A stretch of DNA of 11,634 bases. Source: Ktedonobacteraceae bacterium (lineage in GTDB: Bacteria > Chloroflexota > Ktedonobacteria > Ktedonobacterales > Ktedonobacteraceae). The stretch is from positions 1 to 11,634 of the forward strand of contig JADBKA010000143.1 of the NCBI GenBank assembly GCA_014896635.1. The letters are read 5' to 3'. Each line of letters begins with the position of its first letter. The stretch's first letter is position 1. A program made the translations under genes and the position numbers. Of this stretch, positions 5,474 through 8,581 are shown one piece after another. The notes beneath the pieces are model-generated. The model saw only the letters and a list, made by a program, of their open reading frames with translations. It ran no database searches and was not told the DNA's origin.

Positions 5474-5647
5474 TACGGAATTAAAGTCGAGAAGCTGCAT
5501 GCCTTCATCAAGGATCATGGCTATATGTTAAGCGGCAAGCACCATGAGATCTACCTCGGCGATCCCCGCAAAGCGGCCCCGGAAAAGCTGAAGACGGTCA
5601 TCAGGCAGCCTGCACAGCATCCCGACTCTTCCTCGAACAAGAGATAA
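5474..5647 (+). pseudogene. C-terminal remnant of a GyrI-like small-molecule-binding protein
   Basis: In the frame ending at the TAA at 5645-5647, the translation includes KVEKLHAFIKDHGY, then GKHHEIYLGDPRKAAPEKLK and TVIRQPAQ. This is the closing part of GyrI-like proteins (Gly-His-His-Glu-Ile-Tyr-Leu-x-Asp-Pro-Arg, then Pro-Glu-Lys-Leu). The frame has no credible start codon or ribosome site; it enters from the 33-base palindrome, and a TGA blocks it at 5414-5416. Only about 50 residues of a domain that normally spans about 150 remain. It directly follows a MerR gene that carries its own intact GyrI domain, so it is not that gene's tail shifted out of frame: both closing motifs are present. 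I read it as debris from a second, deleted gene. Confidence 0.72.
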
Positions 5648-5653
5648 AACAAT

Positions 5654-5699
5654 GAGAGCCGGTTAACCAGTATTAACCGACTCTCGTATAATCTTTTTT
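5654..5699. terminator. Bidirectional intrinsic terminator
   Basis: GAGAGCCGGTTAA (5654-5666) pairs with TTAACCGACTCTC (5673-5685), with one C/A mismatch and a six-base loop. On the plus strand TCTTTTTT follows after GTATAA. On the minus strand ATTGTTTTAT follows directly. It closes the plus-strand GyrI remnant and the minus-strand micro-ORF array, which converge here. A perfect TATAAT lies at 5687-5692 on the plus strand, inside the tail. Confidence 0.78.
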
Positions 5700-5796
5700 G
5701 ATGATACAGGCTTCACCTCCCCACGTTCATCCGCATCCTGATTATGCTGATGAAGCATGAGAGGCAAAGCTCAACTCAGGGATGAGATGCCCGCTT

Positions 5797-5859
5797 CTAC
5801 GGGCACTCCCGGTCGATCTGAAACACCACCCCTAATACATGGACCGGTATCTTCATCAT
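5797..5859 (-). CDS. Micro-ORF copy 1, 20-residue peptide
   Basis: The peptide is MMKIPVHVLGVVFQIDRECP. It starts at the first of two consecutive ATGs (5857-5859), seven bases after GGAGG; the second ATG aligns with the start of the other copies. It ends at TAG inside the GCCCG/CGGGC hairpin. It has one Lys near the start, a central hydrophobic block (VLGVVF) and a polar end with a single Cys (DRECP). It is too short for a signal peptide, membrane protein or folded domain. Relative to copy 2, most codon differences are silent or conservative. I do not recognise it. A pheromone-like signal, a small toxin or a regulatory decoy ORF are all possible. Confidence 0.7.
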   Translation of the reverse strand: MMKIPVHVLGVVFQIDRECP

Positions 5860-5932
5860 GGTTCTGCCTCCTTTCGGCTGTACCCGTGAAGATTTCCGTT
5901 TTCAGGATAAGCCAGTGATAGGAAGCCCGTCT

Positions 5933-5992
5933 CTACGGGCACTCCTGATCAATCTGGAACACCATCCCTCTTAAACGAACCGGTACTTTCAT
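5933..5992 (-). CDS. Micro-ORF copy 2, 19-residue peptide
   Basis: The peptide is MKVPVRLRGMVFQIDQECP, ending at TAG inside the hairpin. The ATG is 11 bases from GGAGG; a TTG directly before it (5993-5995), eight bases from GGAGG, aligns with the first ATG of copy 1 and could be the true start. It shares PV-x-x-x-G-x-VFQID-x-ECP with copy 1. Gly9, Val11, Phe12, Gln13, Glu17, Cys18 and Pro19 are the same, with codon changes such as TTC/TTT and GAT/GAC. Function unknown. Confidence 0.7.
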   Translation of the reverse strand: MKVPVRLRGMVFQIDQECP

Positions 5993-6081
5993 CAAGGTTC
6001 AGGCCTCCTTTCGGCTGAGCCTCCATAAAGACCTCACCTTCCCGGTGATTGATGCTCCAATGCCCGCCTTTACGGGCACTC

Positions 6082-6129
6082 TCAATCGACCTGGAACACC
6101 ATCCCTAACAGGCGAACCGAGATCTTCAT
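6082..6129 (-). CDS. Micro-ORF copy 3 (promoter-proximal), 15-residue peptide
   Basis: The peptide is MKISVRLLGMVFQVD. GGAGG is seven bases before the ATG, the best spacing of the three copies. A TGA at 6082-6084 sits where the other copies have CAG or CGG, so the ECP tail is not made unless the TGA is read through. The downstream codons GAG TGC CCG and the hairpin stop (TAA) are still present, so the shortening looks recent. It is the first coding unit after the strong promoter. Confidence 0.68.
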   Translation of the reverse strand: MKISVRLLGMVFQVD

Positions 6130-6176
6130 AGGTGTGCCTCCTTTCGGCTGACCTATTGAAGCTATCCGCCATAGTA

Positions 6177-6204
6177 CCCAGAGGACTGTTATCATTCCCC
6201 TGGG
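6177..6204 (-). other. Hairpin at the 5' end of the array transcript
   Basis: CCCAGAGG (6177-6184) and CCCCTGGG (6197-6204) form a seven-pair stem with one A/C mismatch and a 12-base loop. The predicted start of transcription is at about 6204, so this stem would begin at the first bases of the RNA. Such 5'-terminal stems often protect RNA from decay. Confidence 0.5.
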
Positions 6205-6210
6205 ATTGGT

Positions 6211-6239
6211 ATTGTAATACATGGCGCAAACAATGTCAA
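6211..6239 (-). promoter_or_regulatory. Strong promoter of the micro-ORF array
   Basis: On the minus strand a perfect TTGACA (6234-6239) and TACAAT (6211-6216) are spaced by exactly 17 bases. This is the closest match to consensus in the window. It points into the array, and no other gene lies between it and the bidirectional terminator at 5654-5685, giving a predicted RNA of about 530-550 bases. Confidence 0.85.
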
Positions 6240-6284
6240 GGCCGCCACCAGAAAAACCGCCGGTCCTTTTTTCGCACCAGGGGG

Positions 6285-8146: not shown

Positions 8147-8257
8147 GGATGAGAAAGGAAGCACGTACCGCCTCCTCTAGCTGATTTCCAGGCGAAGGAG
8201 CATACGCGAGATAAGCCTGCCTCGCCCATGCGAGTTAAATATTATGAGGAGAAAGAG

Positions 8258-8581
8258 ATGGACCGTCTTTCACAGTTTTTTCGCTATGGCATGCAAAAGC
8301 GACACCCCAAAACCGTTGAAGACAGCAAGAAACGCTGGAGCATCCCCTCGTTTCTCAGCATCAATAGTATTGGCAGCTTTTTGAGCATCTGGAGCCTTTT
8401 GAGCGCTGGCAGTATCCTGAGCATCGGCAGCGCAGGCAGTATCCTCAGTATCGGTAGCACCGGAAGTATTCTCAGTATCGGGAGTGTAGGTAGTATTTTG
8501 AGCATCGGCAGCGCAGGAGCAATCCTCGGTATTGGCCGGATGCGCGTGTTCACCCTCAAAGCTCCCCAGAAAGAGCAGTGA
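8258..8581 (+). CDS. Ser-x-x triplet repeat protein
   Basis: A 107-residue protein. Residues 1-27 are basic and polar (MDRLSQFFRYGMQKRH..., ending KKRW). From residue 28 to 85, serine occupies every third position without exception, twenty in a row, followed by A88 and G91. From residue 52 the triplets form a nine-residue unit SILSIGS-A/T/V-G, four times plus a partial copy. The tail (94-107) is basic. A strict three-residue period of Ser with Ile/Leu and Gly suggests a beta-solenoid or other stacked fold, not a transmembrane helix. I have a general impression of similar repeat proteins with a leading RW-x-x-PS motif in Actinobacteria; none has a function I can name. AGGAG six bases before this ATG (8247-8251) decides the start over an ATG at 8228. 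No signal peptide is seen. Confidence 0.8.
   Translation: MDRLSQFFRYGMQKRHPKTVEDSKKRWSIPSFLSINSIGSFLSIWSLLSAGSILSIGSAGSILSIGSTGSILSIGSVGSILSIGSAGAILGIGRMRVFTLKAPQKEQ
8339..8536 (+). repeat. 27-bp tandem coding repeat (SILSIGSxG)
   Basis: The repeat portion of the S-x-x gene is visible in the DNA as imperfect 27-base units, clearest from 8411 to 8518 (such as AGTATCCTGAGCATCGGCAG). Copies differ at many third codon positions (AGC/AGT, ATC/ATT, GGC/GGT/GGG), so the array is old and kept by selection on the protein, not a fresh slippage product. Confidence 0.8.

Follow-up and report, generated by a model that had tools for sequence, protein, structure and literature searches.

The window, an 11,634-nucleotide stretch of DNA from a Ktedonobacteraceae bacterium (contig JADBKA010000143.1), carries on its minus strand three tandem cassettes that each consist of a Shine–Dalgarno box within a hairpin, a micro-ORF and a stop-proximal hairpin. 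Based on comparison with related genomes, the array is an accessory form, duplicated, shortened and arranged in tandem as in two other genomes, of an element that apparently represents a gene family of the Ktedonobacteria not described before. The codon comparison indicates that the core of the micropeptide is under purifying selection, and the micro-ORF is very probably both translated and selected. A micropeptide encoded in a structured small RNA is a known kind of gene; the layout, the breadth of distribution and the tandem form are new as far as was searched.

The three-cassette array of the window

An earlier note, made from the sequence of the window, had described three minus-strand cassettes with an identical box, an ORF and a hairpin at the stop codon. 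This description was confirmed except that the stop codon of unit 1 lies 5′ of the hairpin P5 and outside its loop. The 15-nt Shine–Dalgarno box CAGCCGAAAGGAGGC is the same in all three units by sequence identity (positions 6136–6150 in unit 1, 6003–6017 in unit 2 and 5866–5880 in unit 3, all on the minus strand as are the features that follow), with a spacing of 133 and 137 bp. The micro-ORFs, defined by ORF and codon comparison, comprise 15 codons in unit 1 (MKISVRLLGMVFQVD followed by the stop codon, 6082–6129), 19 codons in unit 2 (MKVPVRLRGMVFQIDQECP and stop, 5933–5992) and 20 codons in unit 3 (MMKIPVHVLGVVFQIDRECP and stop, 5797–5859). The predicted P4 hairpins of units 1 and 3 (6124–6161 and 5851–5891) place the box in the loop and the start codon in the stem, and a similar predicted hairpin in unit 2 (5994–6022) ends immediately before the start codon. 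The stop-proximal hairpins P5 are of the type GCCCG...CGGGC and were assigned by folding and covariation (6061–6078 in unit 1, 5925–5940 in unit 2 and 5788–5805 in unit 3, the latter two containing the stop codon). The three cassettes are preceded by a predicted 5′ hairpin P2 (6177–6204), the probable counterpart of a CCAGRG/CYYTGG helix in the single-copy RNAs described below, and are followed by a predicted 3′ stem CATCCCTGA/TCAGGATG (5734–5784). Based on a by-eye comparison with the single-copy RNAs, this stem is possibly a shortened counterpart of their 3′ domain (CCTCTGAG...CAGAGG and the like).

The array is bounded by a sigma-70-type promoter found by motif scan (TTGACA-17-TACAAT, 6211–6239, 11 out of 12 consensus positions) and by an intrinsic terminator found by motif scan and folding (5646–5685, a 14-bp stem at 5685–5654 with a T-rich tail), in agreement with the isolated transcription unit that the earlier note had proposed. 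In the 1301 bases of the window that were scanned, four promoter-like sites were found versus 0.9 expected and two terminator-like sites versus 1.3 expected. The fold of the 561-nt array transcript has a free energy of −246.7 kcal/mol compared with −183.3 kcal/mol in shuffled sequences (z = −8.3), and none of 100 shuffles was as stable. Among the 53 units of the family that were aligned (see below), 32 have an upstream promoter-like site that matches at least 10 out of 12 positions and 17 have no site of at least 9 out of 12 in the stretch scanned, in some cases through short flanking sequence. Terminators behind the units of relatives were recognised by eye. A plus-strand promoter-like site (10 out of 12) lies within the array terminator at positions 5663–5692, and an antisense transcript of the array is therefore possible. 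Antisense sites of at least 10 out of 12 were found in 2 of the 53 units, both of them in the window, and sites of at least 9 out of 12 in 4 of the 53.

Elsewhere in the window, a TPP riboswitch scored above the Rfam gathering score at positions 1119–1231 of the minus strand, upstream of the gene (345–1127) for the thiazole synthase ThiG, and a plus-strand ORF at 8228–8581 contains about 4.3 copies of a 27-bp tandem repeat at 8402–8517 that encodes Ser-Ile-Leu-Ser-Ile-Gly. One protein of the window has four clear relatives, at 56–58% identity, and a fifth, weak match.

Distribution and forms of the family

An exact-pattern scan of the genome_contigs collection for the unit returned seven loci, all within the Ktedonobacteria: five in Thermogemmatispora, one in a Ktedonobacteraceae MAG and one in Ktedonosporobacter rubrisoli. 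Exact patterns fit close relatives only and the scan is therefore no test of absence elsewhere. A covariance search of related genomes, which the earlier note had suggested, extended this range considerably: a model built from nine units (threshold E up to 0.01) matched 44 out of 47 Ktedonobacteria genomes, all except G013, G019 and G030. A second model, built from 53 units and run against 400 Chloroflexota genomes, again hit those 44 and returned no matches in the other 356, where nine candidates per genome were scored and distant members could be missed. With matches in 44 of the 47 Ktedonobacteria and none among the 356 other Chloroflexota, the family is class-wide and class-specific as far as tested. 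Most genomes contain one match and 10 out of 47 contain two to four, including one genome (G016) whose second match is weak and has no ORF. The locus set comprised 67 matches, of which seven weak ones (E 0.007–0.09) and locus L065 (E 1e-4), which has no ORF, were discarded as chance hits; the near-identical loci L012, L014, L015, L028, L029 and L055 were omitted from the set of 53 units.

The earlier note had known of no described family with this layout, and the database searches bear this out. No Rfam family, including known aptamer families, matched the element, whether in the window or in loci L001, L003 and L007, and neither Pfam nor NCBIfam contained a match for the two peptides that were searched. 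In the literature on small or structured RNAs of the Ktedonobacteria, as far as searched, nothing relevant to the element was found; a study of two thermophilic Chloroflexi strains reportedly mentions transcriptomes. A phage origin was considered and rejected because exact-pattern scans of viral_contigs returned no matches, which for exact patterns is weak evidence. A HEARO RNA scored above the gathering score at positions 1643–1885 of the plus strand of L003, a contig of a Ktedonobacteraceae MAG. The Rfam model of the 6S RNA matched none of the 47 Ktedonobacteria, compared with 4 out of 14 control genomes, so that either the model may not reach this class or the 6S RNA is absent or diverged.

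The common form of the element is a single copy within a structured RNA gene of 320–420 nt that is often convergent to lepA, the gene for elongation factor 4. In the core lineages the order of the single-copy RNA is promoter, hairpins P1 to P4, ORF, P5, 3′ domain and terminator. A 3′ box similar to GGATTAGGACTCGGTTGACGTAACACGGGAGTTGTG is present in many of the single-copy RNAs and absent from Thermogemmatispora. The lepA gene was identified 3′ of the element in 29 out of 53 loci, convergent in all 29, and several of the remaining loci have too little flanking sequence for this count. Larger flanks in G034 and G044 place a convergent lepA 2.5 and 3.1 kb away.

Accessory copies were identified in G001, G033 (at a contig end), G047 and four Thermogemmatispora-type genomes (G040 to G043) and, arranged in tandem, in G022 (two copies), G044 (three copies) and the window (three copies). 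The 8–13 kb around seven accessory loci and the window itself revealed no lepA; in L069, a match of 30% fell on a different GTPase-like stretch. The neighboring genes of the accessory copies vary from locus to locus, and these copies therefore look like dispersed standalone duplicates. ORF listings for seven accessory and nine other loci showed, beyond lepA, a gene of a small-molecule-binding type upstream in several of them. By eye, the long 3′ domain is missing from all three tandem arrays (G022, G044 and the window) and is retained in the accessory copy of G047. In the G044 array, one unit (L042:320) carries ATC at the position of the start codon, showing that single array units can decay, and the terminal Asp is changed to Thr or Ser in four array units of G044 and G022, which suggests that accessory copies may be drifting. 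A long GAAA-type microsatellite was seen immediately 3′ of the accessory copy at L054, in a Thermogemmatispora genome.

Codon conservation and RNA helices

The conserved core of the peptide, KKPIR(L/V/I)LGMV(F/Y)Q(I/V)D, is encoded by 42 nt that align without gaps in all 53 units (51 of which are distinct in the core). Codon differences between the distinct sequences are synonymous in 54.6% of cases in the frame of the ORF, in 11.9% and 5.1% in the other two forward frames and in at most 39.2% in the reverse-strand frames. Shuffling of the alignment columns gave a mean of 18.9% and a maximum of 39.5%, and none of 1000 shuffles reached the observed value; the sequences compared are related and the shuffles ignore this kinship. 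The individual positions display the same pattern (residues numbered from the aligned Met position): Lys2 and Val11 are invariant (53/53) with two and four codons, Gln13 is invariant with CAA in 27 and CAG in 26 units, Pro4 is present in 51 out of 53 with four codons and Asp15 in 49 out of 53. We know of no RNA-only constraint that would explain free third positions together with fixed amino acids. The core ends at the near-fixed Asp, and the N-terminal length of the peptide is variable.

The earlier note had read selection on the peptide from the three copies of the window, had asked for synonymous and nonsynonymous changes to be compared across copies, and had named lost frames and random indels in relatives as the observation that would contradict it. 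The opposite was seen in the relatives, where the frame is kept without indels, and the selection claim stands on the strength of the 53 units. The window copies by themselves differ pairwise by three to five silent and four to five replacement changes, and because only about half of their codon changes are silent the claim rests on the relatives.

The helices were examined in the same units. P5 is 99.7% paired over 318 alignment cells with 15 two-sided changes, compared with 0.9 in shuffles, in an alignment that had been adjusted to this helix. P3 and P4 were counted in 20 out of 22 leaders (19 distinct; L030 and L033, whose P3 and P4 differ, were omitted) and are 86.3% paired with 17 two-sided changes versus 4.0 in shuffles; P3 alone accounts for 10 such changes versus 1.7. 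The basal lineages have different leaders and fall outside the leader sets, and covariation of the leader is therefore demonstrated for part of the class, just as the finding of a structured conserved leader before the ORF applies to the core lineages. P2 reads CCAGAG/CTCTGG in 6 of the 22 leaders and CCAGGG with CCCTGG or CCTTGG in the other 16, an assignment made by eye because the 5′ arm of this helix was wrongly aligned by MAFFT. A full-length alignment of the 22 single-copy RNAs gave a partial consensus only with RNAalifold. At least 20 out of 53 units contain a CC-GNRA-GG mini-hairpin (loops GAAA, GAGA and GGAA) with the Shine–Dalgarno sequence as its 3′ strand, and the basal units of the 53-unit set lack this mini-hairpin.

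A model of the leader (R3) gave 37 matches in 29 out of 47 genomes (E up to 0.05). The 29 strong matches (E < 1e-4), in 27 out of 47 genomes, are all located at element ORFs, and the eight weaker matches (E 9e-4 to 0.03) include one at the known site in G004 and seven elsewhere that were taken as chance. The strong leader matches are confined to element sites, and a general riboswitch that is used on many genes was rejected. The leaders of L007, L003, L021, L026 and L028 contain a T-T mismatch in P3, and most of these five carry an AGGCCT-type repeat, recognised by eye, that could possibly pair with bases at the Shine–Dalgarno site to form an alternative fold.

The codon that follows the Asp is a stop codon in 29 out of 53 units, and Arg (11), Gln (7), Lys (5) or Glu (1) in the others. 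The distance between the Asp codon and P5 is 7 nt in 36, 6 nt in 12 and 5 nt in 3 of the 53 units (2 unscored), based on a strict Watson–Crick stem scan that replaced a looser text pattern (7 nt in 44 and 6 nt in 9 out of 53). Among the 39 non-accessory units, 26 have a stop codon directly after the Asp, leaving the hairpin bases beyond it untranslated, and three (L003, L052 and L059) contain no stop codon within 13 codons after the Asp and read on through P5, so that the peptide is not short everywhere. Tails ending in xECP, which terminate within or close to the P5 loop, occur in 8 out of 14 accessory units and in 1 of the 39 others. ECP, which had been noted as a shared peptide motif, is the in-frame reading of GAGYGCCCGU, bases of the conserved hairpin region. 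RNA pairing accounts for the conservation of these bases, and ECP was accordingly discarded as a selected motif in favor of a by-product of the hairpin.

Function and relation to known systems

The array is, on balance, best described as a tandemly amplified accessory form of a Ktedonobacteria-specific micropeptide RNA gene that acts through a regulatory micropeptide, a reading that we hold with modest confidence. Each cassette would form a self-contained translation unit within a small mRNA or dual-function RNA that is transcribed from its own promoter. Melting or remodeling of the leader hairpin P4 would open translation, and the released peptide may then regulate a larger partner, as SpfP does with CRP. 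The triple copy would provide a higher peptide dosage or, alongside the single-copy gene, a source specific to certain conditions. The translated cassette is taken as the functional unit because the arrays repeat the leader hairpin, the ORF and P5, and an active role of the RNA itself is suggested as well by the rich 3′ domain that many of the single-copy forms carry.

The best analogy for this mechanism is Spot 42 and its peptide SpfP, likewise a small, separately transcribed RNA with a conserved ORF some 15 codons long. Other dual-function small RNAs are also separately transcribed and carry a conserved ORF of about this length, and the family units combine such a conserved small ORF with a promoter and terminator of their own. 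SpfP itself is described as a 15-residue peptide from Spot 42 RNA that binds CRP (PMC11188072). Nothing points to a sequence relation between the two systems, which belong to different phyla, and in the Ktedonobacteria the ORF lies between covarying hairpins and can be repeated in tandem. The best analogy for the layout is the Downstream-peptide RNA, or yfr6, of the cyanobacteria, a glnA-related riboswitch candidate located upstream of an ORF of 17–100 residues (PMC2864571). Both place a structured leader before a short conserved ORF that is recognisable by its synonymous changes, and the yfr6 gene is compact, at about 250 nt. There, only the 5′ UTR is thought to be conserved among 634 Downstream-peptide RNAs, with two full-length yfr6 RNAs (PMC2864571), whereas conservation in the Ktedonobacteria extends to the peptide and the stop hairpin and, for part of the class, to the 3′ domain. 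The tmRNA resembles the element as a structured RNA of about 400 nt with a short internal ORF but differs in that the element combines a Shine–Dalgarno site with a start codon, and nothing like a tRNA domain was seen in it. It was dismissed as an identification: the tmRNA covariance model gave no gathering-score match in the window or at the element in three loci, and 37 out of the same 47 genomes contain a separate tmRNA gene above the cut-off.

The main rival to the regulatory micropeptide is a ribosome-arrest sensor, in which the nascent peptide stalls its ribosome at the C-terminal (I/V)-Asp, beside a stop, Lys, Arg or Gln codon, with the leading edge of the ribosome on P5, and the RNA fold switches, so that the nascent peptide would sense and the RNA would act. 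We regard this as doubtful. Given the geometry of the ribosome, the 5–7 nt between the Asp codon and P5 place the hairpin approximately where a ribosome with the Asp in the P site would touch it, at the end of a core whose Asp is near-fixed and whose N-terminal length varies. The chemistry also has a precedent in ErmBL, where the stalled ribosome holds Asp10 in its P site and Lys11 in its A site, and Arg7 and Val9 to Lys11 are critical (PMC4935803); like ErmBL, the element is a short ORF in a structured leader, and some members contain a Val/Ile-Asp beside a basic residue. It differs from ErmBL in that the stop codon directly follows the Asp in 29 out of 53 units and in that the inspected loci contain no regulated gene downstream on the same transcript. 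In these loci no same-strand gene is conserved behind the element, the lepA gene is convergent wherever it was matched (29/29) and same-strand genes further down vary between lineages. The N-terminal Lys-Pro-Arg part of the peptide is also conserved, and the Asp is lost in four accessory units, both of which argue against arrest. Less probable still is a version in which the element is a class-defining RNA whose self-stalling micropeptide is the sensor and whose surrounding RNA is an effector that acts in trans and not on a gene behind it, the terminating ribosome parking on P5 at the conserved Asp codon and thereby switching the fold. To our knowledge, a free-standing, ribosome-gated regulatory RNA of this kind would be unlike the known leader-peptide attenuators.

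The remaining alternatives make the peptide a toxin, a signal or a by-product. A type I toxin-like tandem locus of the Ibs/Sib or ZorO/OrzO type, with toxic peptides that the leader hairpin would silence together with an antisense RNA, had been among the candidates of the earlier note. The likeness lies in the tandem small ORFs and sequestered ribosome-binding sites; ZorO-type toxins show tandem duplication and sequestration of the ribosome-binding site (PMC8309996), and the plus-strand site at 5663–5692 could yield an antisense transcript. The membrane-associated type I toxins described there are hydrophobic peptides with antisense RNA antitoxins (PMC8309996), and neither a hydrophobic transmembrane peptide nor a conserved antisense promoter was found here: the mean hydropathy of the core is 0.42, its longest run free of charged residues, His, Gln and Asn is 6 in 49 out of 53 units (maximum 9), and the strong antisense sites are those of the window, inside the terminator. 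The family is also class-wide with one copy in most genomes, and with no positive evidence in its favor a toxin is improbable. That the RNA alone is the product, as a structured or titrating RNA with an incidental ORF, would fit the stable fold (z = −8.3), the covarying helices and the identical boxes in tandem, but it is contradicted by the synonymous pattern, a codon-level signal far beyond that of the other frames and the shuffles, and is very improbable. A secreted signaling peptide of the quorum type, also a candidate of the earlier note, would account for a short conserved peptide that is multicopy in the window. Its standing is the poorest of all and we consider it highly unlikely: no positive evidence was found, most units show no larger precursor, the ORF listings revealed no shared neighbor beyond lepA and the small-molecule-binding-type gene, and across the class the family is mostly single-copy.

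A 15-residue peptide with a dedicated folded RNA that is present nearly class-wide is an unusually clear case of a gene far below the size limits of annotation, and the element is not among the protein and RNA family libraries that were searched. The comparative signal is strong enough for direct functional testing in Thermogemmatispora or Ktedonosporobacter, both of which include cultivated strains, and the coexistence of single-copy and array forms represents a natural dosage experiment. If the arrest reading were true, it would extend the logic of leader peptides to a free-standing RNA, and if the RNA acted in trans, the array of the window would provide such a switch in a multi-input or digital form.
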